Positions 17,472 to 47,125 of a stretch of 53,003 nt of DNA are shown here, in pieces. Location: positions 1 to 53,003 of the IMG/VR virus record IMGVR_UViG_3300012009_000060; one strand, given 5' to 3'. Source of the stretch: a virus. Made by a program: the position numbers and the translations under genes. The notes under the pieces were generated by a model, which was given only the letters and a program-made list of their open reading frames with translations, made no database searches and had not been told where the DNA came from. The stretch's first letter is position 1. Every line of letters starts with the position of its first letter.

Positions 17472-17871
17472 TGAGTTTTGCCTTTTCGCGGCGCACCGCG
17501 TCCTTCGTGGGGCGGTCCATGGCCTTCGACAACTCCTGGTACAGCTGCACCACCTGCGTTTCGTCTACGGAGTCAACATACGCGCTGACACCGCGCACAA
17601 TCTCGGCCAGCTGCTTGCGCCCCTGCTTACGCTGGCGTTGCGCGTACACGGCCCCGGCCCCACCGACCAAGGTGCCAACGCCGCCAACGAGTGCGCCAAT
17701 CCAGTTCCCCGACGCCGCGTTCCCGACTGCGGTGCTGATGGCGTCTTGCATTGGGCTGGTGCCAGTGTCTTCCCGTGTGTCCGTGAGCACACACCCGGCC
17801 GCGCACAGGAAGAGAAGGCCAATTACCCCAGCGGCAAAGATGCTGGACCACCGGAGTCGTGTGATATTCAC
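17458..17871 (-). CDS. Small lipoprotein-like membrane protein (137 aa)
   Basis: It starts at GTG 17871 (GTGA overlap with the previous stop). It has a basic start, a hydrophobic core IFAAGVIGLLFLCAAGC and a cysteine at about residue 27, like a signal-peptidase II lipobox although the -3 residue is Ala. Residues about 55-78 form a glycine-zipper hydrophobic segment (WIGALVGGVGTLVGGAGAVYA), followed by a charged helix. This could be a lipoprotein, an outer-membrane spanin-like protein or another lysis/entry membrane protein. I do not recognise a family with certainty. Confidence 0.6.
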   Translation of the reverse strand: MNITRLRWSSIFAAGVIGLLFLCAAGCVLTDTREDTGTSPMQDAISTAVGNAASGNWIGALVGGVGTLVGGAGAVYAQRQRKQGRKQLAEIVRGVSAYVDSVDETQVVQLYQELSKAMDRPTKDAVRREKAKLNAPG

Positions 17872-18065
17872 GACCGAGGTCCCTTTTTGGACGCGGGTTT
17901 CTTGGCGGCAGGCGTCGCGGGCGTCTCGGGCGCGGAGCCCGGAACCGGTTGCAGACGGGACACCACGTGCCGCAGGGCGGTTTCCGCGTGGGTCCGGCCC
18001 TCACGGGTGAGGTGGCACGCCGCGACACATTGGTCCAGAGCGGTAAGGGCTTGCAGGTCGTTCAT
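17868..18065 (-). CDS. Small protein of unknown function (65 aa)
   Basis: A 65-residue protein with an excellent SD (TAGGAGGAAAAC then ATG) and a four-base overlap with the next gene. It has one helical segment (residues 1-38) with two Cys, then a Pro/Ala/Lys tail. No family is recognised. Its close coupling to the lipoprotein-like gene suggests that both belong to the same small cassette. Confidence 0.6.
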   Translation of the reverse strand: MNDLQALTALDQCVAACHLTREGRTHAETALRHVVSRLQPVPGSAPETPATPAAKKPASKKGPRS

Positions 18066-21400: not shown

Positions 21401-21777
21401 GGATGTGCGGGGTTGACGTCGCGAGCGATGAGCGTGTTGTGCGACAGAACGTTGGTCGTGGTTACCAGGTCCAGGCTGTCCAGCGACCCCAGCTGCCGAC
21501 TGATGACCACGGTGGCCGTGGCCCCGCGGTGGTGCGTAATGGTGACCAGGTGCGTTACGTCATCGGCGTTGTGGACGAACACCGAACGGACGATACGGGG
21601 GTCTGAAGCTGCCGACACCAACACCACGCTGGCATCGGCCACCAGCGCCGTGCTGGAGCCTTCCACGAAGGTGGTACCGTGATCACCGTAGCTTGCGAGG
21701 GCCGTCAAGGGTGACGCCGAAATCGCCTCTTCCACAGCGATTGTGAGCGTGTCGCCGGGCTCCAAGACAAGAGTCAT
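18445..21777 (-). CDS. Large tail fibre / tailspike (1110 aa)
   Basis: The first 200 residues are a virion-side beta domain. Residues about 225-330 hold two near-identical copies of a repeat containing DVLDDLNTLGAVASDGQFLV and ending ARTSLGL, a hallmark of phage fibre shafts. Later come repeated TLDSVS..GI.V.DDL.LASG units and two copies of PDIGSSGNKFGTGYFT. The C-terminal end has WRDSDDNKTYLLYN. It is probably the main receptor-binding fibre. The DNA for the middle (about 19,380-20,760) is clearly AT-richer than both ends, with AAATTTATTT-like words absent elsewhere in late genes. This suggests that the receptor-binding part was acquired by exchange. The start overlaps the 97-aa gene upstream. 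Confidence 0.85.
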   Translation of the reverse strand: MTLVLEPGDTLTIAVEEAISASPLTALASYGDHGTTFVEGSSTALVADASVVLVSAASDPRIVRSVFVHNADDVTHLVTITHHRGATATVVISRQLGSLDSLDLVTTTNVLSHNTLIARDVNPAHPAAAIDTSGLTTNRYGRVGATTWEDGLISDDGATVSVLGDLSLGGNALLNATVAWGLLTGTPTTLAGYGITDGALDADLTAHVADTDGVHGIADTALLLVDGDIGTDVQEHGDVLDDLNTLGAVASDGQFLVGTGAGAFAYESGATARTSLGLAIGTDVQAHGDVLDDLNTLGAVASDGQFLVGTGAGTFAYESGATARTSLGLGIGDSPTFASVGVDGGITLSGDTISGNGTTVTVDDKLAVNDSLAVAQYFAIDSPDTSSESVIFLRSDGVDRWCISKTDEAETGSNEGSNFRICRHADGGAREDSPISISRATGNVLLADTLDLDDFLNFKNYDKGIFWNDAFTDGIWYPSAGNLSVRVGAMSPLIEATSSEVTVDGDGSFTGDFEVEGTLSADTLDSVSAGGITVGDDLALASGKGITNAGGTPDIGSSGNKFGTGYFTSISLDGSDVETSLDDRPTFSHFIDESTGLRAVDFGAPGDYTKEVIALCELDNDDITLESWSRGTISLHSVSGYLASVVINFCFQKQRNATNAYATLSKTGAYADPVRPCTFTYNGTKYGGIEYYLSSSQHSRQYCTYVGPFTPFRLAYYNVNTSTALIPEVNSSLVIDGADILEYGDRYFNGDVWCENLYNRGDTPDIGSSGNKFGTGYFTEINLGGSNLTSLQGGTANTLQKADGSDGLSDSSITDDGSDVEISVPVTVFGNTSSEYATIGADGAGAWTYYDNGVDDFSVGVYQDVNFPSGLLIAAGDHAAYTAIPHYAFDSSEFHLDTSINLHHSGWLLGRTYAKIHEGDPGAFDYDTSLDVPEMVFRMADADSPVDPADGGGVKFVLGSGENGGDDGVFAVEGGDVELGTDVDLTLSSSGTLRTDTLDSVSSSGISVDDDLELASGIDLSLSSTGTLETDTIDSASGSGITFDDDLELASGKSVDCATNGGYFKPRRLSQSAQPTPETGEMLVWRDSDDNKTYLLYNDSDEGARKVELT

Positions 21778-23911: not shown

Positions 23912-25537
23912 CTACCAGTCCGAGAACAGGGAGGGGATACGGGGACCGTCACCAGCCATTGCAAACTCATGTGCCCGCTCCAGATCTTCTTCGTAGATGC
24001 CATGCGGGTCCCGGAGCGTTCCCCCGTCACCTTCGATTTCATCCGAGAAATTCAGGCCGGTTGGGGTGGGCAACACCCGATGCTGTAGACAGCGCGCCGG
24101 AATGGAGATGGTATCCACGATGTCGTCGAAGTCGCCCTTGTCGAAGGCCAAGATTTCGGGTAGGGCAGTAAAGTTTACCTTGGGAGTATCTGGCAAATGG
24201 ATAAGGCCCATGCCACTTTGCGCCTGCGCAGCGGCCGCCTTGCGTCGTTTGTCCATGCCACACGCAGGTGGAACCACGATTTCGAAGTACTTGCTGCGTT
24301 TGCGCATTTCGCGCTCAAGCATTGGCCGAATGGCGCTGAGGATGGGGCCAGATTCAATGAGAATCTGGAATACGTTGTACCGTTCGGCCAGATCAATGGT
24401 TGCGATGACCGATTCGTAGATGTCCAGCTTGTCGTGGACAAAGTCTGGCAAGAAGTACTGGTGGTCATCGGCGGTAACTGCCATTGGCCACAAGCACGTG
24501 TAGTCGTTTTCTTCTTTGGTTTCCAGCGCGTAGTCTGTGGAAAGGTAGAAGTACAACTGGTCTGCAGGCGGGAGTTTGGCCGGATCGTACAAGTGGAAGT
24601 GCTTGCGCTTGAAGAAGTTACCTTCTTCCGCCACTGGCTGCTGCTGGTAGATAGCCAACCAGTCGCGCGGCGTCATGTTTTCTTGCAGCTCTTCGTAGAA
24701 CCCGCGTTGTGGGAAGCGGGCCGGGTGCAGCGCTTCCCCCTTCTTGCGGTGTTTCTCGTCTTTCGTGGCAATAGCGGGGAAGTCCACTGAAAACCACCGG
24801 CGTTTCTTGGCCGGCCGCTCCGCGTCTTGGGCTTTGATTTTGCCGATTAAGTCGTTAGTGCGCCAGCGTGTGTGCATGACCACCATAGCCCCGCCAGGTG
24901 CGAGCCGTTGCATAGCGGTGGTCCAAAACCACTGCCAGATTGCGGTGTTGACCGTCTCTGAATCGGCTTCCTTGGCGCTCGCATACGGGTCATCAAGAAT
25001 AAACAAGTGGGCGCCGCGGCCGTTGATGGTCCCGTCGCGGCCCACAAACCGCAACCCGCCCCCTTGAGCGGTGAGGAGCCGGGAGCGCGAATTGACTTCG
25101 GGATTGAGGGTGTAATCGGGGAAGATGGCCTTAAACCGGGGGTCTGTTGCCGTTTGCTTGCACCAAATGCCGTGGTCTTCGGCCAACTCTCCAGTAGCTG
25201 ACGCCACGATGACTTCCAGCTTTGGGTTGCGCGCACTGAAAAAGAGCGGGAACCCTTTCGAGTACGTTTGAGATTTAGCATGCCGGGGCGGCATGGTTAC
25301 CAGCAACCGGCGCAACAGCGCGCCAGCCTCGCTTGGCTTGCGAATTGCGTCTTCAAGCTGGGCCGCCCGTTGGCACATTTCGGTAATGTGCCACCCGGGT
25401 TGGAAGTCAGGGGTGAACACTGACAGGAAGGCTTCCAAGCTTTGGCCGGCCAACTTGCGCTGCGCTGCGACTTGCAAGGCCCGCCGCCGCCGCGCGTGGG
25501 CCTCCATTTGCTCACCGATAACGGCGAGGCTAGTCAC
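23912..25537 (-). CDS. terL: Terminase large subunit
   Basis: From the GTG at 25537 (541 aa): the packaging ATPase Walker A variant MPPRHAKS is at residues 82-89 and the Walker B FILDDP at 179-184. The nuclease domain has STDYA (D335), ILIESG (E395) and FDDIVDTIS (D471-D475), the three acidic clusters of an RNase H-like terminase nuclease. It powers DNA translocation through the portal and cuts the concatemer. The Gly of the usual GKS is Ala, as in several podovirus terminases. The GTG start overlaps the small-subunit stop by eight bases. An upstream in-frame start at 25672 lies fully inside terS and is unlikely; ATG 25507 is another option. Confidence 0.93.
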   Translation of the reverse strand: MTSLAVIGEQMEAHARRRRALQVAAQRKLAGQSLEAFLSVFTPDFQPGWHITEMCQRAAQLEDAIRKPSEAGALLRRLLVTMPPRHAKSQTYSKGFPLFFSARNPKLEVIVASATGELAEDHGIWCKQTATDPRFKAIFPDYTLNPEVNSRSRLLTAQGGGLRFVGRDGTINGRGAHLFILDDPYASAKEADSETVNTAIWQWFWTTAMQRLAPGGAMVVMHTRWRTNDLIGKIKAQDAERPAKKRRWFSVDFPAIATKDEKHRKKGEALHPARFPQRGFYEELQENMTPRDWLAIYQQQPVAEEGNFFKRKHFHLYDPAKLPPADQLYFYLSTDYALETKEENDYTCLWPMAVTADDHQYFLPDFVHDKLDIYESVIATIDLAERYNVFQILIESGPILSAIRPMLEREMRKRSKYFEIVVPPACGMDKRRKAAAAQAQSGMGLIHLPDTPKVNFTALPEILAFDKGDFDDIVDTISIPARCLQHRVLPTPTGLNFSDEIEGDGGTLRDPHGIYEEDLERAHEFAMAGDGPRIPSLFSDW

Positions 25538-25982
25538 TTGTTTCTCTGTCGTCGTCTTCGTCGTCTTCCAACAGCGCGTCCAACGACCCAGCTTCGGCCT
25601 GTGCTTCGGCTTCCTGCGGCACGTAAGTACCAGCGGCAATCTCGTGCAAGGTTGCCGTGTCCGCATGCTCAATGGCGTCCAGCGCCAGCTTCCGGCTGTC
25701 CACCGCGGTCGTGGTAACGGCCAAGCTGCGGGGGGAGGGCAGGAACTTATCCACGAGGTAGTTGACTTGCTTTCTCCGCTCCTCAGGGCTCAAGTCGTCG
25801 TAGAGCGCGTATCCCTCATCATCCAGCATCGGATGCCCGGTCAGGCTATCAAACTTGGTCATGCGCCCTTCCATGGCGCACTGCACTGCCAAAGCCAAAA
25901 GCCCTTCACGGGGAATGTTTGCCCGTAGCCGTTCGGCATGCTGATGGTCTGCGCACGGAGGGCGCGAGGGAAGGCGGAGCAT
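25530..25982 (-). CDS. terS: Terminase small subunit candidate
   Basis: A 150-residue protein immediately upstream of terL and overlapping it. It is helical, with PREGLLALAVQCAMEGRMTKFDSLTGHPML, then DDLSPEERRKQVNYLVDKFLP, and a very acidic C terminus (LEDDEDDDRE). The size and position fit a small terminase, which recognises the packaging site and contacts TerL through its tail. The ATG at 25982 lies at the predicted transcription start, so the message would be leaderless. A downstream ATG at 25862 with GGAAGG four bases ahead would give a 40-aa shorter protein. The sequence itself is not recognised. Confidence 0.6.
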   Translation of the reverse strand: MLRLPSRPPCADHQHAERLRANIPREGLLALAVQCAMEGRMTKFDSLTGHPMLDDEGYALYDDLSPEERRKQVNYLVDKFLPSPRSLAVTTTAVDSRKLALDAIEHADTATLHEIAAGTYVPQEAEAQAEAGSLDALLEDDEDDDRETSD

Positions 25983-34807: not shown

Positions 34808-35722
34808 ATGAACGGGCACAAACCTTTGTATCACATAGTAGACGGACAGCAGATTCCCGGGCCGCCCCCCGGAATGCGCGGGGACACGTCGGGCGTATGG
34901 GGCAATGCAACTGGCTTGTGGGGGGACGTGTCTGGCGACCTGACGGGCGACCTGTCGGGCGTATGGGGCGACCTGTCTGGTGTGCGGGGGAAAGTGGAAA
35001 ACCTGATGGGGTTCCTGACGCCTGTGCGGGGCGACTTGTCGGGGTTAGAGGGTGACCTGTCCGGCGCCCTGTCTGGCCTGGGCAGAAACCTACCGGGCGT
35101 GGCAGGAGACGTGACACATGTGTGGGGCGACCTGACGTATGTGCGGGGGGACCTGACTGGCCTTTGGGGCCCCATAACGGGCACGTGGGGGGACCTTTCC
35201 AATGTGCGGGGGGACCTGTCGGACGTAGTAGGTGAACTGATGGGTGTGCGGGGCGACCTGTCGGACGTAGTAGGTGAACTGATGGGTGTGCGGGGCGACC
35301 TGTCGGAGGTGTCGGGTAACCTGACGTACGTGCGAGGCGACCTTTCGCATGTGTCGGGTAACCTTTCTCACGTGTCGGGTAACCTTTCTCACGTGCGGGG
35401 GGACCTGTCGGGCCTAGTGGGTGACCTATCCAGCGCCCGGCGCCCTGTTGATAAACGTGTGATGAAGCAATGCCCGCACTGTGTGTGCGTGATTGATGCC
35501 AGGGCCACCGTGTGTCCGTGGTGCGACAACGCGGTGCGTGCGCCTGCTACCAACCACCGTACCGTGCACCTGGCTTGTCTTGCGCTTGCCCTGGAACTCG
35601 TGCTAGCAGTACTGTATTGGTATTACCCGCACCCTATCCTAGCCATGACTGGCCTATTTGCGGCCGTCGCAACCTTTTGGCTGGCCCTTTGCGCCATTCG
35701 GGCCCGGGCCCGGTCCCGGTAG
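34808..35722 (+). CDS. Heptad GDLS-repeat / zinc-ribbon / two-TM protein (304 aa)
   Basis: The ATG at 34808 follows AAAGGACAAAAC. Residues about 25-210 are more than 20 copies of a seven-residue unit of the form V-x-G-D-L-S-x, an obvious solenoid. Residues about 217-236 are a zinc ribbon (CPHC...CPWC). Residues about 248-300 hold two hydrophobic helices (LACLALALELVLAVLYWYY; ILAMTGLFAAVATFWLALCAI), and the end is Arg-rich. G-D-[LV]-S-type heptads are known from uncharacterised phage and bacterial proteins. Fusion to a zinc ribbon and membrane hairpin is not one I know. The repeats may form a solenoid rod displayed at the inner membrane. It is the last early gene before the terminator. Confidence 0.75.
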   Translation: MNGHKPLYHIVDGQQIPGPPPGMRGDTSGVWGNATGLWGDVSGDLTGDLSGVWGDLSGVRGKVENLMGFLTPVRGDLSGLEGDLSGALSGLGRNLPGVAGDVTHVWGDLTYVRGDLTGLWGPITGTWGDLSNVRGDLSDVVGELMGVRGDLSDVVGELMGVRGDLSEVSGNLTYVRGDLSHVSGNLSHVSGNLSHVRGDLSGLVGDLSSARRPVDKRVMKQCPHCVCVIDARATVCPWCDNAVRAPATNHRTVHLACLALALELVLAVLYWYYPHPILAMTGLFAAVATFWLALCAIRARARSR

Positions 35723-35732
35723 TAATAAAATA

Positions 35733-35756
35733 CCCCTGCCGGATAACCGGCAGGGG
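35733..35756 (-). terminator. Perfect 10-bp terminator hairpin, best for the minus strand
   Basis: CCCCTGCCGG/CCGGCAGGGG with a four-base loop is followed on the minus strand by TATTTTATTA. It lies between the convergent ends of the plus-strand early genes (stop 35722) and the minus-strand 36-39 kb genes (stop 35841). A second stem, CCCGCACACAC with GTGTGTGCGGG (about 35784-35823), adds to the barrier. Confidence 0.8.
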
Positions 35757-35840
35757 CGGTGCTGCAGGGAGAAAGGGTAAGGCCCCGCACACACGCAACC
35801 TTAGTGGGTGTGTGTGTGCGGGTGTCAAGTTCCTTTCCCG

Positions 35841-36104
35841 TTACTCAACCATGATCCAATCGTCCTCGAACTGCTTCTTGGGGACCCATGTGACGTACCC
35901 TTCGTGGCGCGGGTCGTCGTGGTTGGCACCGTCGTGATGGGGCACGCCAGGGTCGTGGTCCTCGACGAGGTATCCGTCGGCGGCCAGATCCTCGTCTAGC
36001 GCGGCTGGGGTACTCCAACCGCGGTAGTGGATGTACTCGCCCCGAGTCATCGGGCGAGCCTCGACGATCTTCACGCCGACGTAGGTTTTGGTTTCAGTAG
36101 TCAT
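35841..36104 (-). CDS. Conserved phage protein of the TRGEY..YRGW type (87 aa)
   Basis: The ATG at 36104 is chosen because AAAGGA lies at the right distance and a longer frame upstream runs through other genes. The sequence VGVKIVEARPMTRGEYIHYRGW, then GYLVEDHDPG, then HEGYVTWVPKKQFE, matches a small acidic protein family common in tailed phages, whose function is unknown. The SD is inside a TGGTTC/GAACCA hairpin module also present at 49356. A five-codon mini-frame (ATG 36118) ends in TGA overlapping this ATG, which could couple initiation. Confidence 0.75.
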   Translation of the reverse strand: MTTETKTYVGVKIVEARPMTRGEYIHYRGWSTPAALDEDLAADGYLVEDHDPGVPHHDGANHDDPRHEGYVTWVPKKQFEDDWIMVE

Positions 36105-36114
36105 TTGGTTCCTT

Positions 36115-36312
36115 TCATGAACCAGGGTGTTTACAGGCTTCAAAAATTGTGCACCCGAAAGCCAGGGCGGCATCAGTTTCGGCTGCGGCCGCTTCTGCTT
36201 CTTCCCGGGTGTTGAATGCCTCTGCGTCAAAGGGCTCCAGCCCTTCGTCGGGGAGTGAGAGAAGCGCGACCGTCGTCGCATCAGGTGAGTGGATAGCCAC
36301 AAAGAATGGCAT
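36115..36312 (-). CDS. Small acidic protein (65 aa)
   Basis: The ATG follows GAAAGGAAGCAAGAC, a leader identical to that of the methyltransferase gene. It encodes FFVAIHSPDATTVALLSLPD, then a helix EAFNTREEAEAAAAETDAALA and a short end with two Cys. A beta-hairpin plus helix layout is likely. The function is not recognised. Confidence 0.6.
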   Translation of the reverse strand: MPFFVAIHSPDATTVALLSLPDEGLEPFDAEAFNTREEAEAAAAETDAALAFGCTIFEACKHPGS

Positions 36313-36378
36313 GTCTTGCTTCCTTTCATGGTTGCGTGCCCACGGGCACTATTTAGGTACTGGGTCAATGCCGGCAAG
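36308..36378 (-). repeat. 71-bp intergenic module, copy 1 (gene end, palindrome, SD, start)
   Basis: Only about five bases differ between this segment and 36878-36948. In minus-strand order each holds the last codons of a gene (LAG.DPVPK, stop), the palindrome GTGCCC-NN-GGGCAC directly after the stop, then GAAAGGAAGCAAGAC and the next ATG. Confidence 0.9.
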
Positions 36379-36882
36379 CTGAGCTTTGTCGTTGGGTGGC
36401 TGCATGAAAACAAGCCAATGCGTCATCCCTTGCCGTCCGCTGACCTGCCCAAACAACGGCGGGTATGGCGATAGCGGCAGGATCTCAGAGAGTCGGAGCT
36501 GTGTTTCATTCCATTTGAATACCAGCGTCCCGTCGGGTCGCAGGACGCGGAAGCACTCACGAAAACCGGCGGCAAGGTCATCCTGCCAGGTATCGGACAG
36601 CTTCCCGTAGCGGGCTGCGATCCAGGAACGAGGACCGGCGCGTTTGATATGCGGCGGGTCGAATGCGACCAAGGCGAACGAATTATCGGGGAACGGCAGC
36701 GCTCGAAAGTCCATAATCGCATCAGGCTCGATGTGCAAAACGCGCTGACCGTCCTGCTTACCATGGCTGCGATCGGTTACCGTGACGGTCTCTGATCGCT
36801 GATCACCATAGATCACATCGGGGTGATGGGGGTTGAACCACATGGATCGCGGGCCGCAGCAGGGGTCTAGGATTTGTGGCAT
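36349..36882 (-). CDS. Class I SAM-dependent methyltransferase (177 aa)
   Basis: The start MPQILDPCCGPRSMW has the motif I-like DPCCGPRS loop for AdoMet. ALPFPDNSFALVAFDPPH (FDPPH at 74-78) is the catalytic D-P-P-[YFWH] motif of amino-methyltransferases, and FRECFRVLRPDGTLVFKW is the following strand typical of the family. It probably methylates adenine or cytosine amino groups in DNA, perhaps to shield phage DNA. It has no target-recognition insert, so specificity is unclear. The last ten residues (AGIDPVPK) are shared with the unrelated ATPase upstream through a duplicated 71-bp module. Confidence 0.8.
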   Translation of the reverse strand: MPQILDPCCGPRSMWFNPHHPDVIYGDQRSETVTVTDRSHGKQDGQRVLHIEPDAIMDFRALPFPDNSFALVAFDPPHIKRAGPRSWIAARYGKLSDTWQDDLAAGFRECFRVLRPDGTLVFKWNETQLRLSEILPLSPYPPLFGQVSGRQGMTHWLVFMQPPNDKAQLAGIDPVPK

Positions 36883-36948
36883 GTCTTGCTTCCTTTCAGG
36901 GTTACGTGCCCAGGGGCACTATTTAGGTACTGGGTCAACACCGGCAAG
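36878..36948 (-). repeat. 71-bp intergenic module, copy 2
   Basis: This is the partner of 36308-36378, between the ATPase end and the methyltransferase start. The palindrome GTGCCC-AG-GGGCAC lies at 36906-36919. Confidence 0.9.
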
Positions 36949-39330
36949 TTGTGGCACGAAGTGCCAGGTGGTACCGCGCCGGCGCCAAATGTGTAGTAGG
37001 TCCTGGTATTCTACGGGTACGGTGACGTAGTCGGCACCGGTGCGGGCAGCATGCTCGGTAAGCATACGCTCCGCAGCTCCTATCAGCGAGCGCAGAGAAT
37101 CGAAGCGCGCGCCGGTCGTGTGGTGCCACCACCGTACGGTGGCGTCTGGGCTGAGGTCGTAGGCACCAGCTGAAGCCGGGGCGTCGCGGATGAATTTTTC
37201 GACCGTCATGCCGTCTTCCAGCTGCATTGCTGCAGACAGCCCTTGTGGGGAGAAGGCGCGCATGAAGGTTGCAAGGTGCATGCGCGGCGCGCGCGTCTGC
37301 TCCATGTCAGCTTCAACACCTGAGTGCACGGCCTGATCAGCGTGCGTGTTGATGCGGCACTGCGCCCACTCCATCGCCCGGTCAATGGCGTAGATGCTCT
37401 CGTTTGATCCAGCTTCAATGCCGGACCGCATTTCAAGACACAGCTGGGCAAGGGCGAAATGCGTAGAAAAGCGGGCCCGGCGGGTCGCTCCAGCACGCGT
37501 CTGGTTGATGATGTCCAGTACCGGTTGCGAGGATAGGATCGACCAGGCTGAGAAGCGAATTTCCATTGCGGCGCGGCCGCTGCTGATCTCGTCAAAGGTA
37601 TGAGTGCCGCGCCCCAGGCGTTGGTCGTCCGTCAACGGTCCCAGCCATACCGGGTAGGTGCGAGTCAGCATGTCTGGCCCCCACCGCGTAATTGCTTTGG
37701 CGGATAGGACCAGAGAATGGCGCAGGCTGACCCGGCCATCATTCTGCCTTGCCAAGCCGCCGTTGTAGGTGCCGCCTGTGGCCAGCGTCTGCAGGTGCCG
37801 CTTGGCTAGTGGGTGGTCCTGGCGTGGTGCGACAAACTCGTCAAGCACAATGGTTCCGTGTTCAAGCAGCTGTGTCACAATCGTCCGCGTGTCCGGGGCA
37901 GAGTTGCTATCCGGGCTTGACGAGGCCTGCAACGGCAGCGACGGGCACAGGGCCCGCCCCCACGTCACCGCGGCGGAGGTTTTGCCCGTATTGGTCGCCT
38001 CTTCCACGCTGGCGCTCCACGGCAGAAACACCACGATTGGGAACTCGCGGGTGAGCGAGGGTATTTCATGGCGCAGCAGCGAGGCGAAAACCGTGGTGTC
38101 CATGACAGCCCGGTAGGCGTCTATGAGCTCGGGCGGCAGGGTGGATTCTGAGATATTAGGGAAGTAGCGTTGCAGCACGTCGAACGGCATCTCAGTTACC
38201 GCGTAGGTGTCCGGCAGGGTGTCCCATAGGACTTCACGCTCAATGCGCCGCATTTCCGTGCGTGCGTCGTCCAGATTCCAATGGTACCCCAAGATCAGCT
38301 CGTCGGTGTCGCGCACGTCCACCACCACTCCCCGCATGGGGTCGCCTCGGTGTGGCCGGGCCAGCTTCACGCCGCTGAGCTCCGCGCCGTGCTGCACCCA
38401 TGCATCAGGGTCAGGCGCGGGGGCTGGAACGAGCGTGGACCAGGGCCCGGCCACAACATCCGGCGGCAGGCTTGAAAGCGGGCGCAGCTGGCACAAATCA
38501 CCGAACGACATGGCCATAAGCGCAGAGTGAAGAGCGTCGTACCAGCGGCGAGCTGGGTCTGAATCACCCAAGCGCGGGACGCGGAGGCCGCGAGTCACCA
38601 TTCCCAGTGAGGCCGCAGTGAGGCCAGCGAAGCCCGTGGACATGCGAGTGTCAACCAGGTGGCGGGTGCCGCCGTATATGATGGCCAATCGGGCGTCGGG
38701 CGCGCGCCGTGCGTATTTAAGAACGTGCAGGAAAGCAAGCGCCCGCAGCCAGTCCGGAGCAAAGTGCTCGGGAAACGCCAGCTGGCGCAGCTGCGGGTAT
38801 TTGAGCGCGGTCAGCTGCGCCGGCCACCCGCACTGCACGTGTGCGCGTTGGTTCTCACGTTCCCACGTGTCCCGGTCCTCCTCTGGATTGAATGGGCAGC
38901 GCGGGTCGCGCGTGAGGGCAGTAACCAAGGGTCGCCAGTAGCCGTACCCACACCCGGCAAGCAACATGCGCACCGGCGCCCACCAATAAACGTCATGGTG
39001 TTGTGGATACGTGTGTGGCAGTGGGAGCCAGTGCGCCGCGAGCCGTATCCAGGCGCGCAGTATGTCTTCGTGCGCTGGGTCGTTAGGTACGGTGTGGGCC
39101 CCGCGCACAAGTAGTGCGTCCATTGTTTCTTGGGATTCGGTGCATACATCCAGCCCGGTGCGGGCCCCGTCGTCGCGTGGGTAAATGGCGGTATGTATGT
39201 CGTGGGCAGCCTGGGCGGTGTTTATAACAGAGTCGATGTATGCGGTAAATATCTCCCACGTGTCGCATTCAGACGCGAGGTCTATATATGGTCGGTACTT
39301 CTCCGGTACGTTTGCGGGTTCGTCTTTCAT
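36919..39330 (-). CDS. Large P-loop ATPase, candidate replicative helicase/primase-helicase (803 aa)
   Basis: The start at ATG 39330 follows AAAGGGGCTGC; an upstream in-frame start is less likely. The first 440 residues are unique, Trp/His/Arg-rich and contain no CHC2 zinc finger or Toprim motif. A P-loop ATPase follows: degenerate Walker A EATNTGKTS (GKT at about 449-451, first Gly missing), Walker B GTIVLDEF (D497-E498), then HSLVLSAKAITRWG as a sensor-like strand. This order resembles D5/SF3 and VapE-like phage helicase domains. It is the only candidate for replicative helicase or primase here. It is transcribed away from polA from a shared intergenic region. Confidence 0.65.
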   Translation of the reverse strand: MKDEPANVPEKYRPYIDLASECDTWEIFTAYIDSVINTAQAAHDIHTAIYPRDDGARTGLDVCTESQETMDALLVRGAHTVPNDPAHEDILRAWIRLAAHWLPLPHTYPQHHDVYWWAPVRMLLAGCGYGYWRPLVTALTRDPRCPFNPEEDRDTWERENQRAHVQCGWPAQLTALKYPQLRQLAFPEHFAPDWLRALAFLHVLKYARRAPDARLAIIYGGTRHLVDTRMSTGFAGLTAASLGMVTRGLRVPRLGDSDPARRWYDALHSALMAMSFGDLCQLRPLSSLPPDVVAGPWSTLVPAPAPDPDAWVQHGAELSGVKLARPHRGDPMRGVVVDVRDTDELILGYHWNLDDARTEMRRIEREVLWDTLPDTYAVTEMPFDVLQRYFPNISESTLPPELIDAYRAVMDTTVFASLLRHEIPSLTREFPIVVFLPWSASVEEATNTGKTSAAVTWGRALCPSLPLQASSSPDSNSAPDTRTIVTQLLEHGTIVLDEFVAPRQDHPLAKRHLQTLATGGTYNGGLARQNDGRVSLRHSLVLSAKAITRWGPDMLTRTYPVWLGPLTDDQRLGRGTHTFDEISSGRAAMEIRFSAWSILSSQPVLDIINQTRAGATRRARFSTHFALAQLCLEMRSGIEAGSNESIYAIDRAMEWAQCRINTHADQAVHSGVEADMEQTRAPRMHLATFMRAFSPQGLSAAMQLEDGMTVEKFIRDAPASAGAYDLSPDATVRWWHHTTGARFDSLRSLIGAAERMLTEHAARTGADYVTVPVEYQDLLHIWRRRGTTWHFVPQLAGVDPVPK

Positions 39331-39348
39331 GCAGCCCCTTTCTTGCTC

Positions 39349-39378
39349 ATAGTATTGCGCTTGACACCAGGATATCAA
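39349..39378 (-). promoter_or_regulatory. Candidate promoter/operator for the ATPase-methyltransferase operon
   Basis: TTGATA (39378-39373), 18 bases, then TACTAT (39354-39349) on the minus strand. The segment 39360-39379 is a CTTGA...TCAAG dyad that could bind a dimeric regulator and would also sit upstream of polA. Confidence 0.35.
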
Positions 39379-39496
39379 GTGGCATCCTTGTGGGTGTCGG
39401 TGGGGCACAGAGCACCTTACCACGGCCCGGCCGCGCGGCAACGTGCGGGAACACGGCATATGTGGTAGGGTCGAAACTGACCAACCAGGAGGGGCA

Positions 39497-41662
39497 ATGG
39501 ACTACCTCTATCTCGACTGTGAAAACCTGATGGACAAGCCGAACGGCTTTTCCCTTGGCGCCCTGCCGTTGCGCACGTACCTACGGGATGCCACTACTAC
39601 CGCGCTAGCGTACGCGGTAAACGATGACCCGGTGACGGTCATCTACGACCCCGAAGAGGACTTCACGTTCATCGAGCAGCTACGGGAAGCCTTGCTTGAT
39701 GAGGACGTGTGCCTAGTGGCGCATGAGTGGTCTTACGACGCGCGCGTATTGGTACACCGGTTTGGGTTGCCATACCCGTGCCATGGACACTGCACAATTG
39801 ACTTAGCGCATGCGGCCTGGCCCCAACAACCAGGCGGGTACGGGGCGGCCGCCTTGGCACATGTGCCTGCGGTAGCCAACATCCTACACCGGCGAGGGGC
39901 AGCACCAGACAAGCTCAGCATTGATTTGAATACCGGCTGCTATACGCACGAAGCACTGCACTCCTATGTTGCGCAAGATGTGGAGATATGCCGGGCCGTG
40001 CATGAGGCGGCGTGTGCGCGTGTCTCCGAGTTAGAAATGCGCATTGAAGAAACGACGACACGGTTCCGGCAGCTGGCCCTTCGCATTGATCAGGAGCGGC
40101 TGGCAGCGGCCGCCACGCAGTTCAATGCGCAGGCTCTAGAGGGTATGCGGGAAGCAATAGAGATCTTAGGGGCCGACAGTGAAGAGGCGTTCGGGTTTGA
40201 TGGGGAAAACATCAAGAGCGTCAAGCAAACCCCCCTACGGCAGTACCTGCTGGAAGTGTGCGCGTTTGATACTCCCACTATTTCACTGAAGAAAATTTCC
40301 AGTGCCAAGTTATCCAAAAACCGGCTGGCGTCCCGTGTGCTGCACGGCAGTTCGCGCGCCAACCGCATGCGCTGGCACCGGCAGAATGTGTCGAAGCTAG
40401 CCGGTGTCCTAGAAGTGGACTGCGAACTTGCCAATTTCCGCAGCCACACCGGGCGGAGTTCAAGCCCGGCAGTGGGAAAAGGCATTAACCTGTTAAACCT
40501 GCCCAAGCATGACAAGACAGTGGCGCGGCCTATTCGCGAAAGTTACCGGTTTCCTGAAGGAATGTGTGCGGTGCGCGCAGACGCAAGCAACCTGGAGTAC
40601 CGAATGGGTGTTCTCATGACCGGATGTGAGCACGGTATCCAGCTGTTTGGCAATGATCCGTTCGCCGATCCGTACCTTGCCTTCTGGTACGACTCCACCC
40701 GCCGTACCATCTCACGGTCCGATCCAGAGCGCCAGATGCCGAAAATGGCGGTGCTGGCTTTGGAATACTTGATGAGCGCGGGCGCCTGGTGCGGGCACCT
40801 AGCGCGCGAATTGGCCAAGCCGTATACGAAACTGCGCGAAGAAAATTTGATTCAGATTGCAGACGACCAAGGGTGGCGGTACGCGCAAGTGGACAAGTGG
40901 ACACGAGCGCGGGGGACTCAACTGGGGCTGTCGCAGGGGCTCGTTGCCGTGGGCTGGCATACGCATCGTATCTTCCACGAAGTACACCCGGAGTTTCTGG
41001 CATTTGCTAAATGGGTACTGCGCGCGATAAAAGCCATTGTTGGCGCGCCGGCTTCGTACCGCGAATGGGTATGCGAAGAAAAGATATGGCAGTTTCGGAA
41101 TGCTCCAGACCGGCAGTGGTTTGACATGCACCTGGATCCAGAGCTGGAGGGGGTGTCACTGGCGGTGACGGTAGGCCGGTGGTCGCGCACGGTTGTGTGG
41201 CGGGACTTGGGCGTTCGCGATACCCCGTATGGGTACAACATGACGTGCCTGCAGGCTGGCAATAAAGGGTACAGAGCACTGACAAAAAACCTCGTGATTG
41301 AAAATCCGTGCCAGAGCCTTGGCCGGAACGCGGTGGCGGCGTGCAAGCTCGCGCTGGAGGCCCGCGGACACCAGTACATAGGCGACGTGCACGACGAAAT
41401 TCTTACCGTGGTACCGCGAACCCGCGAGCACGTGCTGCGGGCGCATCAAGACTTGATGGAGACCGGGGGACCTGGCAATTCTTTGGGGTACGGCTGGGCG
41501 TTCCAGCTGGATGCCAACGAAGTTCTGTGCAGCGAAAGCTGGTATAGTGACGACATGGGCAAGCTGCTTCCGGAGATTGCACCTGGCAAACACCCGCACA
41601 ATACCGAGTGGTGGGAGCGCCTACGTGACGGCGATGACTCATTGCTTGAAACCCTTTGGTGA
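39497..41662 (+). CDS. polA: DNA polymerase I (family A) with 3'-5' exonuclease
   Basis: The ATG at 39497 follows AGGAGGGGCA; the longer frame from 39443 lacks an SD. The 721 aa are organised as follows. Exo I is LDCE (D7, E9), exo II SYDARVL (D81) and exo III YVAQD (Y157, D161), so proofreading residues are intact. Polymerase motif A is ADASNLEYR (D362), motif B R412-K416-L420-Y424 in RQMPKMAVLALEY, and motif C VHDE (632-634). The residue matching E. coli Phe762 is Leu420. In viral PolA surveys this position (Phe, Tyr or Leu) tracks with replication style. It replicates the phage genome and starts the replication operon. Confidence 0.96.
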   Translation: MDYLYLDCENLMDKPNGFSLGALPLRTYLRDATTTALAYAVNDDPVTVIYDPEEDFTFIEQLREALLDEDVCLVAHEWSYDARVLVHRFGLPYPCHGHCTIDLAHAAWPQQPGGYGAAALAHVPAVANILHRRGAAPDKLSIDLNTGCYTHEALHSYVAQDVEICRAVHEAACARVSELEMRIEETTTRFRQLALRIDQERLAAAATQFNAQALEGMREAIEILGADSEEAFGFDGENIKSVKQTPLRQYLLEVCAFDTPTISLKKISSAKLSKNRLASRVLHGSSRANRMRWHRQNVSKLAGVLEVDCELANFRSHTGRSSSPAVGKGINLLNLPKHDKTVARPIRESYRFPEGMCAVRADASNLEYRMGVLMTGCEHGIQLFGNDPFADPYLAFWYDSTRRTISRSDPERQMPKMAVLALEYLMSAGAWCGHLARELAKPYTKLREENLIQIADDQGWRYAQVDKWTRARGTQLGLSQGLVAVGWHTHRIFHEVHPEFLAFAKWVLRAIKAIVGAPASYREWVCEEKIWQFRNAPDRQWFDMHLDPELEGVSLAVTVGRWSRTVVWRDLGVRDTPYGYNMTCLQAGNKGYRALTKNLVIENPCQSLGRNAVAACKLALEARGHQYIGDVHDEILTVVPRTREHVLRAHQDLMETGGPGNSLGYGWAFQLDANEVLCSESWYSDDMGKLLPEIAPGKHPHNTEWWERLRDGDDSLLETLW

Positions 41663-41670
41663 GGACACAC

Positions 41671-41940
41671 ATGAAAACCGGATACATACCATTCGCAAAA
41701 TCCCTGCGCGAGCTGCGCAAGAAACACAAGCTATCTACCCGTGACGTCGCAGATGAGTTGGGGGTGTCAGAGGCTGCGATATGTGCGTATGAAAGTGCGT
41801 ATCGTTCCCCGTCTCTTGCCATATTGATGGATTTGGCCTCTCTGTTCCATACGTCACTTGATGTAATGGCAGGGCGCGAAGGCCTACCACCTGCGAAACA
41901 GTGCCCGCGGTGTCACGGGGCGGGGTTCGTGCATGAGTAG
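41671..41940 (+). CDS. XRE-type HTH regulator with C-terminal DnaJ-like zinc motif (89 aa)
   Basis: The ATG at 41671 is nine bases after the polA stop. Residues about 9-62 are a classic Cro/C1-type HTH (SLRELRKKHKLSTRDVADEL, then GVSEAAICAYESAYRSPSL and LMDLASLF). The last 12 residues are CPRCHGAGFVHE, a single CxxCxGxG motif of the DnaJ zinc-finger type, normally found in pairs. A dimer could supply two halves. It overlaps the helicase gene by eight bases. It is a good candidate for controlling the replication or late operons. Confidence 0.85.
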   Translation: MKTGYIPFAKSLRELRKKHKLSTRDVADELGVSEAAICAYESAYRSPSLAILMDLASLFHTSLDVMAGREGLPPAKQCPRCHGAGFVHE

Positions 41941-43618
41941 TATTACGTACTACCCAGAAGTACTGTGGCCAGAGCTGGGTATCAAGCCCCAAGCAGTGTC
42001 ATCCGCTGACCGCCCGTATTGCGCGTTGACGATGGCGTTAGCCTGCTGGCAAGCCGATGCGCGCGGGCTACCGCGTAAGGGCAGTCTGCGCGGACCAGAC
42101 TTGGCCGACATTACGGACCCGATGGAAGTTGGCAAAGTACTCTCAGCCGCTTTCCGCGAGCACGGGGTCAGCTGGATCCGTGCAAACCGGTGGGCTGAGA
42201 GTCTGCGCCGGCACAAGGTGCTGGACCCTGTCGAGCTGATCACCAGCGCGGTCGACGCTTCGGGACAGACCTACACCCTTGACCCGTACCAGATTGACGC
42301 CATTGCCCACATGACGCCGCACGGTGGCATATTCGACTTAGACACTGGGCTGGGGAAAACACTGGGGGCCGTGTGCTATGCGTTGACGGTAGTGGAACAG
42401 GGGTTTGCGGCTGCGAGCCGCTGCTGGATCCTGGCCCCTCGTAATGCGTCGGAGGCGTGGAGCCATTGGCTGAAGCCCCTTGAGGAAGTGTTCGAAGATG
42501 TGCGCTTCGTTTCAGTGGACAGTGCGCACAAACTTATCGGAGATAGCGGCGACGGCGGGGTGCTGATCCTGGACGAAACGCACATGCTGGGGGGAGCGTC
42601 GACGCGTCGCACCCGTTCGGTACTTGAGGTGCGCAAATCCTTTGACAGCGCCCTCAGTGCAACCGGCACGTTCCTGCATGGAGGGATTGAACGCACCCTG
42701 TCCGTGCTGGACATCGCCCTTCCGGGCGCTGCGGTATTCTCAAGCCGGTGGAAATGCGGAGACCGGTTCAAATGCCTAGTGCGCAAGAACATTGGCCCTC
42801 GCACAGTCACCGAACTAGAAAAACCCCACGGCACCCTGCGCGCAGAGTATTTTCAGTACCTATCGCTGTTTGTGGTGTCACAGGATAAATCCGACGAGAG
42901 CATTCGCGCCCAGATTGGCTTAAGTGGCGTGGACCAGGATGTAGTGACAGAGAAAATCGGCACCGCGTTCGGCCAGAAAGCGGCCCTGGACCTGTGGGTA
43001 GCGTCAGCTATCGAGCTGGCTGGTGGAGATCCGAGCCAGTCCCCGGAAGCGGCATGCAACGCCAAGCTAGAATGGCCACACGCCTCCGCTGTCATGCACG
43101 CCATGGCGCGCCAGGGAATCGAACAGAAAATTGAATGGTTGGCCACCCACATGGACGATACCGACCTGCCCCTAGTCATTTTTGCACATTCTCTTTACAG
43201 CTTGGACGTGCTTGAGGCCGCCTTTTTTGAGGCCGGTATGCCGACTGTGCGTGTTGACGGCGGAGTAACCCGCGGGCGAGATGACCTTATCCACAGGTTT
43301 CAACAAGGAGACGTGAATGTGTTTTTAGCACAGTGCGCTGCCGCAGGCGTGAGCATGAACCTGCAGTGCTCATGTCTGTCAGTAGCGTTTGACCACGGCC
43401 GCGACCCTACCGTATACTACCAGCTGCTGGGCCGCACCTACCGACGTGGCCAGACGCGCGATTGCCTGCACGTCGACCTGGTCACCAACGATTTGCAGGT
43501 TGGCATCGTCAAACGCCTGCGAGACGCGCAGGCGTTCGACGCAAGCTGTTCAGAATGGCAGCGCATGAAGTCCATCAACGACGACCTGCGTGCCCACTAC
43601 CATCACCTTGATGCATGA
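41933..43618 (+). CDS. SF2 (SNF2/DEAD-like) DNA helicase (561 aa)
   Basis: Motif I is DTGLGKT (137-143) behind a Q-like YTLDPYQIDAI. Motif II is DETH (214-217), motif III SAT (242-244), a motif V-like segment CAAAGVSMNLQ (468-478), and motif VI QLLGRTYRRGQTRD (497-510), whose QxxGRxxRxGQ form is typical of SNF2-family translocases. It is shorter than cellular SNF2 proteins, and the first 110 residues are unique. It probably translocates on DNA to open origins or remodel forks. The next gene encodes a HIRAN domain, which in eukaryotic HLTF/Rad5 is fused to a SNF2 motor. Confidence 0.92.
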   Translation: MSSITYYPEVLWPELGIKPQAVSSADRPYCALTMALACWQADARGLPRKGSLRGPDLADITDPMEVGKVLSAAFREHGVSWIRANRWAESLRRHKVLDPVELITSAVDASGQTYTLDPYQIDAIAHMTPHGGIFDLDTGLGKTLGAVCYALTVVEQGFAAASRCWILAPRNASEAWSHWLKPLEEVFEDVRFVSVDSAHKLIGDSGDGGVLILDETHMLGGASTRRTRSVLEVRKSFDSALSATGTFLHGGIERTLSVLDIALPGAAVFSSRWKCGDRFKCLVRKNIGPRTVTELEKPHGTLRAEYFQYLSLFVVSQDKSDESIRAQIGLSGVDQDVVTEKIGTAFGQKAALDLWVASAIELAGGDPSQSPEAACNAKLEWPHASAVMHAMARQGIEQKIEWLATHMDDTDLPLVIFAHSLYSLDVLEAAFFEAGMPTVRVDGGVTRGRDDLIHRFQQGDVNVFLAQCAAAGVSMNLQCSCLSVAFDHGRDPTVYYQLLGRTYRRGQTRDCLHVDLVTNDLQVGIVKRLRDAQAFDASCSEWQRMKSINDDLRAHYHHLDA

Positions 43619-43631
43619 AAGGAGGGTCACC

Positions 43632-43955
43632 ATGCCCTGGCATCCTATCTTCCGCAGCATCCCCGTAGTGGGGTGCTACTTCCGCTCCGAAGAGGAGCAA
43701 ATGGCGGCAAAAGCCCTGACGCACGGCGCACCCGTGGCTCTTGTGCTGGAGCCCGAAAACGAACACGACAACCGCGCCGTTGCGGTACACACCCCTGGCG
43801 GCCAGCATATCGGGTACATCCCGGCGCATTCGTCCGGGGCGGTGTATGCGCTGGCTGAACTGGTCGAAGCGGAGATTGACACCCACGCTTATGTGACCAA
43901 GGTGTCGTCGAAGGGCTGGCCCGTCATCACAGTTGTGGTGGGGGACGAGTCATGA
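43632..43955 (+). CDS. Stand-alone HIRAN-domain protein (107 aa)
   Basis: The ATG follows AAAGGAGGGTCACC. The full protein is one HIRAN domain: PVVGCYFRS, then VALVLEPENEHDNRAVAVHT, then GQHIGYIPAHSS. The EPEN..DN.AV.V and GYIP elements are the family signature. HIRAN of HLTF binds 3'-OH ends of single-stranded DNA and drives fork reversal, and bacterial and phage HIRAN proteins are poorly studied. It is coupled to the SF2 helicase upstream and overlaps the next gene by ATGA, so the proteins probably act together at 3' ends or stalled forks. Confidence 0.88.
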   Translation: MPWHPIFRSIPVVGCYFRSEEEQMAAKALTHGAPVALVLEPENEHDNRAVAVHTPGGQHIGYIPAHSSGAVYALAELVEAEIDTHAYVTKVSSKGWPVITVVVGDES

Positions 43956-45018: not shown

Positions 45019-46152
45019 ATGGGAATCAAAGACCTGCGCGCCCCGCGCAAAGCCAAAGCACCACAAGAGGCCGCGACGCCCGAGGAGCCCGAAACCAAAC
45101 TGCCAGCCGCCCAAGAGGAGGAAGACGAAGAGGCCCAACTGGCGGCCCAGCTTGCACGCATTAAGGCCAAGAAGGCTGCGGCTGCCAAAGCGGTAGAACC
45201 CAAGCAGGAGCCCGAGCAGGAGCCCGAGCAGGAGCAGGAGCAGGAGCAGGAGCCCGAGCAGGAGCCCGAGCAGGAGCCCGAGCAGGAGCCCGAGCGGCGG
45301 TACGCACTGGCCGGCCGACTGCCCCCGTCTGGGGCCTTCCAAGCGCTCGTGCAAGCTGGCACGCAACAGACGGGTGCTGGGCTGGATGCGCTGTTGGCGG
45401 GCGACGATGACGACGGTGACTTTTCACTGTTTCCCGAAATCGCGGTGCATGGCGGAGACACCGGGGGCTCGTGGGTCCCTGCGGTCGGTGAAGAGGACGA
45501 GGCATACGACTCCTTGCCGCAGGGCCGGAAGCCAGTACCGGCTGTGTTGCTGTCAGTGCGCGCCGCGGTGACGGCATGGCGCGCGGATAAAGACTCGATG
45601 GGCGACGACAGCGAGAACACGCCAGCGTGGTCGTTCGCGGCCCCGCTCAGCGATTTGCGCACGTTGACGCTGCTGTCACAGGCCACCAAGAAATTCCAGA
45701 TGACAGCGAAAGAAAGCAAGGATAAGTTCGACTGGGATGGCGGCAACGGAACCGGGCGCCCGGTACCGCGTCTCGAACTGCTGGTATGGCTACCTGATGT
45801 CGGGTTGGCCGTGCTGGCTACCCCGCCCACTTACCAGTCGTTCATCGACACAATTCGCAGCTTGCGGCAGAACGTGTGCGACACCAACGGCAATGTCGTT
45901 GCCGGCCCAGTATCGGTCGCGATCAAAACCGATACCAAGCAATCGCGGTCGCGGTCCTGGAAGTCCTACTCGTTTGGGTTTTCCACCCCGCGCGATGGCG
46001 GGGCCGAAATGCTGGAAGCCTTCCAAGCATGGCGCGCCGAGGCGGAAGAGGATGACGAGGTCAACGACAAGTTCGAGCAGTGGACTTCGGCCACTGACCG
46101 CCCGCTGACTGAAGATGCGGTCATGCGCATGGAAATGGTGCGCAAGGCCTAA
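45019..46152 (+). CDS. Acidic repeat protein, candidate DNA-binding/recombination protein (377 aa)
   Basis: The ATG at 45019 follows CAGGAGCAAATC. The N-terminal 95 residues are low complexity: Lys/Ala/Glu, then a run of PEQE units. From about residue 100 a folded domain includes PVPAVLLSVRAAVTAWRADK, WSFAAPLSDLRTLTLLSQATKKFQM, LELLVWLPDVGLAVLATPPT and GPVSVAIKTDTKQSRSRSWKSYSFG. The layout and its place just before a Cas4-like nuclease suggest a single-strand-binding or annealing partner. I do not recognise the fold, so this stays a context guess. Confidence 0.6.
   Translation: MGIKDLRAPRKAKAPQEAATPEEPETKLPAAQEEEDEEAQLAAQLARIKAKKAAAAKAVEPKQEPEQEPEQEQEQEQEPEQEPEQEPEQEPERRYALAGRLPPSGAFQALVQAGTQQTGAGLDALLAGDDDDGDFSLFPEIAVHGGDTGGSWVPAVGEEDEAYDSLPQGRKPVPAVLLSVRAAVTAWRADKDSMGDDSENTPAWSFAAPLSDLRTLTLLSQATKKFQMTAKESKDKFDWDGGNGTGRPVPRLELLVWLPDVGLAVLATPPTYQSFIDTIRSLRQNVCDTNGNVVAGPVSVAIKTDTKQSRSRSWKSYSFGFSTPRDGGAEMLEAFQAWRAEAEEDDEVNDKFEQWTSATDRPLTEDAVMRMEMVRKA
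45203..45296 (+). repeat. In-gene 12-bp (PEQE) tandem repeat
   Basis: GAGCCCGAGCAG-type units repeat about seven times, encoding alternating PEQE and QEQE. A slippage-prone tract. Confidence 0.85.
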
Positions 46153-46243
46153 GACACACCCGGTCTGTCCTGGCCCGCGGCAGAACCACACCCGGACAAG
46201 CGGGCCCCAAACGGAACCAAGCCCCACGCCCGAAGGAAAACAC

Positions 46244-47125
46244 ATGGCTGAAACACAAACTCCGACGCAGAAACGGCACCGCGTTCACTGGCGCCCGCGC
46301 GCAAGCAGTCTGGGATACTACGCTGCGTGCGACGCGCGCGCCTTGTGGGACCGCGAACACGCCCTGGAACTTGAAGCGCTGGGGCTCGAAGAAGAGCGCG
46401 AGCACAAACCAGCTGCTGACCTTGGCACTGTGGAGCACTTTCTATTGCAAGATGGAGTGCGCGCCAAGTTCCCCGGCGACCCGCGGGAGTACGCCCCCGA
46501 TCGGGACACCGTGGAGTGTGCGGCCTCGCTCTTCGGCGGGGACGAGGAGGAGATGTTCCGCATTGCACGTAAAACCGTGACGGCGGCGGCTCCGTGCCTG
46601 CCCGTCCTCCCTGACAAGATTGGATGGCGTGCTGAAGTCGAAATTACTACCGCGCTTCTGTCTGGACACATTGATTTTCTGTCCAGCGATCGCGCTGTCA
46701 TTGTTGACCTGAAAACCACGTCGCGTCCCCCGGAAAACAAGCAAATTAAGCGTGAGCACCTGATTCAGATGTACGCGTACTACCTCTTGGTACGGAACAC
46801 GTGCAAGGTTGCTCCCCTACGCGGGGTGGTGATTTACGTGGACAGTCGCGGCGGCAGCTGGACGTTGCCTATCCATATTGACTTCACCACTCACGAGGCG
46901 GAGGCTTTCGCTGGGGTGGTTCAAGATTACATCCGGTATCTTCGCTCCCGGTCCTTGGAAAAATTCGCCTTCCCGAGGTTGTCCACCAAGTGCAAGGACC
47001 TGTTCTGTCCATACTTTGGCGACTGCCACAAGCTGTTCGTGCCACCGCCGGGTACCATGTCTGAAAAACCCGAGGCCCCCACCATTCGACGTTCGGGGCT
47101 CGCCAGCTTGAAGGAGATGCTGTGA
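46244..47125 (+). CDS. Cas4/RecB-like PD-(D/E)XK nuclease with predicted iron-sulfur cluster (293 aa)
   Basis: The ATG at 46244 follows GAAGGAAAACAC. RecB-family motifs are complete: GTVEH (H64), SGHIDF (D144), VIVDLKTT (D155, K157) and the Q175-M-Y-A-Y motif. Cys 29 plus C250-x4-C255-P-x4-C261 reproduce the one-plus-three cysteine arrangement that binds a 4Fe-4S cluster in Cas4, AddB and Dna2-type nucleases. It probably resects DNA ends for recombination-dependent replication. No cas1 or CRISPR array is near. It overlaps the RHH gene by GTGA. Confidence 0.88.
   Translation: MAETQTPTQKRHRVHWRPRASSLGYYAACDARALWDREHALELEALGLEEEREHKPAADLGTVEHFLLQDGVRAKFPGDPREYAPDRDTVECAASLFGGDEEEMFRIARKTVTAAAPCLPVLPDKIGWRAEVEITTALLSGHIDFLSSDRAVIVDLKTTSRPPENKQIKREHLIQMYAYYLLVRNTCKVAPLRGVVIYVDSRGGSWTLPIHIDFTTHEAEAFAGVVQDYIRYLRSRSLEKFAFPRLSTKCKDLFCPYFGDCHKLFVPPPGTMSEKPEAPTIRRSGLASLKEML

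Follow-up and report, generated by a model that had tools for sequence, protein, structure and literature searches.

A SNF2-like helicase gene directly followed by a stand-alone HIRAN gene in a phage replication module: an apparently facultative pairing

In human HLTF, a DNA motor and a DNA-end-binding HIRAN domain are fused in one fork-repair enzyme. Does a phage that encodes a helicase followed at once by a one-domain HIRAN protein carry the same enzyme in two pieces? The original prediction for this locus suggested as much: it described a split HLTF/Rad5-like pair within a replication operon and proposed fork remodelling or origin firing as its task. The window (the whole stretch of DNA that was analysed) is an IMG/VR virus record of 53,003 bases from an uncultured phage; no repeat of at least 15 bases is common to the outer 3 kb of its two ends.

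The first half of the record carries the structural genes (terminase large subunit at 23912–25672, portal, major head protein, and tail) on its minus strand. The DNA-transaction genes, including those for the helicase and HIRAN, form a plus-strand run from about 39.5 to 47.1 kb (Table 1). Genes for DNA polymerase A, an HTH protein, the helicase, HIRAN, and a coiled-coil protein follow each other in tight packing, with an exonuclease further on. The end of the HTH gene and the beginning of the helicase gene share 8 bases, and the coiled-coil gene overlaps the HIRAN stop by 4 bases (ATGA, 43952), so the description of these genes as coupled was correct. The replication setting holds as well.

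Table 1. Genes of the plus-strand run and the evidence for each
Feature	Coordinates	Strand	Basis
DNA polymerase A family	39497..41662	+	phrog_17 DNA polymerase 3e-31; weak PF01612 exonuclease match
Small HTH_3 (Cro/C1-type) protein, 89 aa	41671..41940	+	PF01381 44.7 bits
SNF2-like SF2 helicase, 561 aa	41933..43618	+	PF00271, phrog_62, PDB SNF2 chains, motif alignment
Stand-alone HIRAN protein, 107 aa	43632..43955	+	PF08797, AF2 model, Foldseek, start context
Coiled-coil protein, Gp157-like, 201 aa	43952..44557	+	PF05565 23.3 bits (below cut-off 28.6); phrog_10477 38.9 bits
PD-(D/E)XK / Cas4-like exonuclease	46115..47125	+	PF12705 45 bits; phrog_1706, phrog_69

The HIRAN start that is preceded by a Shine-Dalgarno sequence (AAAGGAGGGTCACC-ATG; AAAGGAGG just 5' of the start) is ATG 43632, 13 bases past the helicase stop. 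The mechanical ORF begins at GTG 43590 and would overlap the helicase gene by 29 bases; the Shine-Dalgarno sequence favours ATG 43632. Both genes are thus where they had been placed, with HIRAN immediately behind the helicase. The polymerase frame is open from GTG 39443, and the start context (AGGAGG) favours ATG 39497; the protein also has a weak match to the aminoadenine-incorporating DpoZ (NF038380, 18.7 bits against a cut-off of 500). The upstream part of the exonuclease frame may be untranslated, and "coiled-coil" is a by-eye judgement from the sequence. On the minus strand, the record encodes a DNA methyltransferase-like protein (36349–36882; phrog_954, 220 bits), an 846-aa ORF (36919–39459) with a Walker A-like NTGKTSAA and no Pfam or PHROGs match, which is a candidate primase/helicase, and a 1110-aa ORF (18445–21777), again with no Pfam or PHROGs match, in the region of the record with the highest AT content (GC about 0.50 at 18–21 kb). 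A 17-nt inverted repeat with a 5-nt loop (35784–35822) lies between convergent gene blocks and is a possible bidirectional terminator.

Is the first gene of the pair a SNF2 helicase, as had been claimed? The protein exceeds the threshold for Helicase_C (PF00271, 36.1 bits against 23.5) and matches phrog_62, "DNA helicase," at 124.9 bits (E 4e-36). Its SF2 motifs are intact: motif I is GLGKT (139–143), motif II is DETH (a DExH form, 214–217), motif III is TGT (244–246), and motif VI is QLLGRTYRRGQ (from 497). Among solved structures, the closest chains belong to SNF2 remodellers (Fft3, E 6e-10; Fun30; DDM1). The part of the claim that did not hold up is the match to SNF2-rel_dom (PF00176), which scores 13.7 bits, under the cut-off of 24.9, so the N-lobe is divergent. 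Because an AlphaFold2 model from four sequences also reached a pLDDT of just 45, the N-lobe and the N-terminal 110 residues are undefined. Judging by the closest solved chains, which are SNF2 enzymes despite the PF00176 miss, the protein is best termed "SNF2-like"; its motor activity is predicted from the families named here. Pfam gave no RING match in this helicase up to E 0.1, and it has no HARP match.

The identity of the second gene as HIRAN holds. The protein scores 44.1 bits against PF08797 (cut-off 24.7; 7.8e-13 in the whole-record search), and an AlphaFold2 model built from 46 viral HIRANs (pLDDT 85) has an OB-like barrel, as in HLTF HIRAN. With VIA-align, the model matches HLTF HIRAN (4s0n_A) at Z 10.7 over 97 residues with an rmsd of 3.5 (Foldseek E 2e-6). 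The closest solved fold is lp_0118 (PDB 3k2y, Z 15.0), which is a bacterial stand-alone one-domain HIRAN like the one in the record, and Rad5 from K. lactis scores Z 8.5. Rows beyond the HIRAN family begin at Z 7.7; at that value the model matches 76 residues of the C-terminal part of HamB from Hachiman defence (8vxy_B), a level that the tool describes as common for unrelated folds. A profile from phage HIRANs also retrieves the HLTF HIRAN domain (E 7e-13). The identification of the two proteins is not due to chance: the profile scores for HIRAN and Helicase_C are above their curated cut-offs, and both lp_0118 and HLTF HIRAN are matched by the HIRAN model. The HIRAN protein also matches the candidate-defence family PDC-M03B.

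We compared the 3'-end pocket of this protein with that of HLTF. In HLTF HIRAN, the bound dinucleotide is stacked between Y72 and Y93 (PMC4666394), the R71E substitution prevents binding of 3'-OH ends (PMC11366124), and an NN90,91AA HIRAN fragment does not restore fork reversal (PMC4666394). In our alignment, Y72 and Y93 correspond to Phe17 and His45, both kept in kind, and Asn91 is kept as Asn43; Asn90 is changed to Glu42 and Arg71 to Tyr16. Position 17 is occupied by F, Y, or H in 43 of the 46 phage HIRANs. It is the only independent sign of pocket conservation, because the pattern used in our survey fixed E40, P41, N43, H/Y45, D46, A49, V/I50, and V52. The pocket therefore looks usable, though not identical to that of HLTF. 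As prokaryotic HIRAN domains were termed "uncharacterized" in 2024 (PMC11090510), DNA-end binding is carried over from HLTF, and we infer 3'-end or junction binding from the named families.

How far does the likeness to HLTF and Rad5 extend? The record shares with them the HIRAN fold and a SNF2-like motor encoded together with it, and purified HIRAN restores fork reversal in trans to HIRAN-deleted HLTF (PMC4666394). But HLTF and Rad5 are single polypeptides, whereas the record has two separate ORFs with their own stops and starts; they also have a RING between the motor lobes that was not found in the record's helicase, the arginine at HLTF position 71 is absent from the record's HIRAN, and the two motors are only distantly related. 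SMARCAL1-like HARP-SNF2 proteins are a comparable pairing of a fork-remodelling motor with a DNA-structure domain; the record's helicase shows no HARP match. We know of no HIRAN partner for T4 UvsW or T5 D10. Both are SF2 motors of phages that work on branched DNA during replication and recombination, and they are a precedent for phage SF2 branch-migration motors (PMC5180179); with the record's helicase they share SF2 motifs.

The same components are present in cultured phages. With the record's HIRAN as the query, tblastn found matches in Pamexvirus and in Xanthomonas, Stenotrophomonas, Variovorax, and Janthinobacterium phages, whose annotated modules carry DNA polymerase, helicase, nucleotide-metabolism genes, and HIRAN on one strand. 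In the Bradleyvirinae module (Pamexvirus PaMx28, Xanthomonas phage Mallos, Stenotrophomonas QDWS359, AXL1, and DLP4), PolA, a phrog_62 helicase, and HIRAN are co-directional, as in the record, and every full-length Bradleyvirinae-type record that we searched by profile has both the helicase and HIRAN. In these phages, HIRAN lies 6.5–7.6 kb 3' of the helicase, past genes for thymidylate synthase, deaminase, and DHFR; in the record, no such cassette separates the two genes. The Bradleyvirinae helicases have no significant pairwise similarity to that of the record (best E 0.09). In the published descriptions of DLP4 and AXL1, the protein is already named as HIRAN and, with reference to Iyer et al. 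2006, stalled forks are mentioned (PMC6469090, PMC9206674). Because these modules carry the components and the papers name HIRAN, both the components and the general idea were already known. What sets the record apart from known phage modules is the direct adjacency of helicase and HIRAN. HIRAN is also found among lysogeny genes in a staphylococcal and a C. difficile phage. Roseobacter phage RDJL3 (L022) has two HIRAN matches: one is annotated downstream, and the second, at 17604–17894, is just before the DNA polymerase gene (18324).

To see how often the two genes are paired, we surveyed virus contigs with a degenerate DNA pattern for the HIRAN core, which gave at least 80 contigs as loci. 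Among the matches listed, 74 of the 80 pattern-selected contigs exceed the Pfam HIRAN cut-off, nine have a phrog_62 helicase, and in just two (L148 and L149/L033) is HIRAN within 1 kb of that helicase. In L148, the helicase is followed by two small genes and then HIRAN. In L149/L033 (L033 3357–5978; L149 4390–7071), HIRAN, a coiled-coil protein, a SNF2 helicase, and UvrD are in a row. The helicases of these close pairs are divergent. L033 has three gene kinds of the record (HIRAN, coiled coil, and SNF2) in another order, and we found no further relative of this triad. Among the 77 downstream neighbours of HIRAN (the record's own included), L033 alone has a coiled-coil protein like that of the record; it sits between HIRAN and SNF2 and resembles the record's protein only weakly (BLASTP E 2e-4 over 83 residues). 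In L150 and L151, HIRAN is about 4 kb upstream of the helicase on the same strand. These SNF2 helicases (L150 6402–8630 and L151 7102–9375) have long N-terminal extensions, and the L150 protein has a match under the cut-off (22.3 bits) to HARP, a domain of SMARCAL1.

Other phage HIRAN genes are next to UvrD (L034), a clamp-loader-like AAA protein (L104), an ERF annealing protein (L068), or a methylase. In L052 (79–1536), an N-terminal HipA_C and a C-terminal HIRAN form a single protein, which joins two domains otherwise known from neighbouring genes. Among six long HIRAN proteins that we scanned, none was a HIRAN-helicase fusion. In a scan of bacterial genomes, one of 12 HIRAN loci (L248) had a SNF2-like gene next door, and we rejected it as Pfam did not reproduce the HIRAN call. 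Searches for close relatives of the record's own proteins found none, whether by IMG/VR single-protein searches (helicase, HIRAN, and polymerase), by a DNA pattern for motif VI of the helicase, or by tblastn of the helicase against cultured phages at 1e-5.

As a control, we collected 28 contigs by terminase similarity, 14 of them at least 30 kb long. HIRAN is in none of the 28. Eight of the 14 longer contigs have a phrog_62 helicase (a ninth, with a partial 21.6-bit match, was left out), as compared to seven of the 47 HIRAN contigs of at least 30 kb among the matches listed; this difference (Fisher p 0.003) is opposite to enrichment and, the two sets being collected differently, argues only against enrichment. 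The survey shows no enrichment of the helicase in HIRAN contigs. Since few HIRAN contigs have the helicase and helicase-bearing terminase relatives lack HIRAN, the two genes occur independently. The survey suggested with the original prediction did find close pairs elsewhere, but not a conserved unit. Because the genes are apart in Bradleyvirinae and rarely adjacent in the survey, and HIRAN is absent from the terminase relatives, tight pairing is, judging from the sequences of these three groups, facultative.

What might the two proteins do? In one reading, they are a dedicated split HLTF/Rad5 that forms a stable or fork-assembled complex: HIRAN would capture the nascent 3' end and point the SNF2 motor to the junction, and the fork would be reversed. 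The 13-base gap, the in-trans rescue of HLTF, and the close pairs with divergent helicases argue for this, but the rarity of adjacency in the survey, the wide spacing in Bradleyvirinae, the terminase relatives that have the helicase and not HIRAN, and the lack of fusions among the long HIRAN proteins scanned argue against it, and we view it as a tentative possibility. A fuller version seems unlikely to us: the reader of 3' ends and the motor for fork reversal would be separate, co-expressed proteins that assemble on stalled forks, perhaps with the coiled-coil protein as a third member. Of the claim of a split pair, then, the domains, the replication setting, and a fair analogy (given the rescue in trans, PMC4666394) stand, and the pairing as a conserved unit does not. 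Alternatively, HIRAN could be an independent DNA-end binder, for end protection, counter-defence, or recombination, whose adjacency to the helicase is mere operon packing and whose closer partner is the coiled-coil Gp157-like protein or the Cas4-like exonuclease. Most HIRAN phages among the matches listed in the survey lack the helicase, HIRAN neighbours are diverse (from UvrD, clamp loader, ERF, and methylase to the HipA fusion and lysogeny genes), a similar coiled-coil protein is 3' of HIRAN in both the record and L033, and the match to PDC-M03B would fit as well. This explanation is doubtful given that HIRAN and the helicase always occur together in the full-length Bradleyvirinae-type records and that the coiled-coil similarity is so weak.

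An origin-firing or replisome-loading machine, as had also been proposed, is unsupported, and we consider it highly improbable. The genes do adjoin DNA polymerase, but SNF2-type motors act as translocases, not as replicative helicases or loaders, and the 846-aa minus-strand ORF is the likelier primase/helicase candidate. Also, the two stretches that we searched (35600–36450 and 39200–39560) contain no iteron-like array; their repeats are limited to a small number of inverted ones and a single 15-base repeat in two copies.

The most likely pair would be a UvsW/D10-like branch-migration motor and a stand-alone 3'-end or junction binder that act in the same replication/recombination pathway. More broadly, we consider it about evenly balanced whether the helicase and HIRAN are accessory factors that process forks and recombination intermediates within a phage replication module of the PolA type. 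The basis for this was computed: both domains, motif integrity, the HIRAN fold, gene packing, and recurrence of the set in other phage modules. The SNF2-like motor would translocate on duplex DNA and move branch points, as do UvsW of T4 and D10 of T5, in branch migration, fork regression, and the processing of D-loops and Holliday junctions. HIRAN would bind fork junctions, or exposed strands with a 3' terminus, that the phage polymerase and the Cas4/exonuclease-like enzyme leave behind; it might thereby mark or protect the DNA end on which the motor, the polymerase, or a recombination factor works. Co-expression from the packed gene run could keep the motor and HIRAN in one pathway without an obligate complex. 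The phage HIRAN genes that adjoin other DNA-transaction genes (UvrD, the clamp-loader-like AAA protein, and ERF) favour this reading; the changes at HLTF positions Arg71 and Asn90 and the divergent N-lobe of the helicase count against it.

Prokaryotic HIRANs, still "uncharacterized" in 2024, are nonetheless spread over many phages. Adjacent motor and HIRAN genes offer a simple two-protein test of 3'-end reading by HIRAN with a separate SNF2 motor. If there is no link between the two, then phage HIRAN would be a general DNA-end module that changes partners. If there is, such a two-protein set may represent a stage that preceded, or exists alongside, the fused eukaryotic enzymes.
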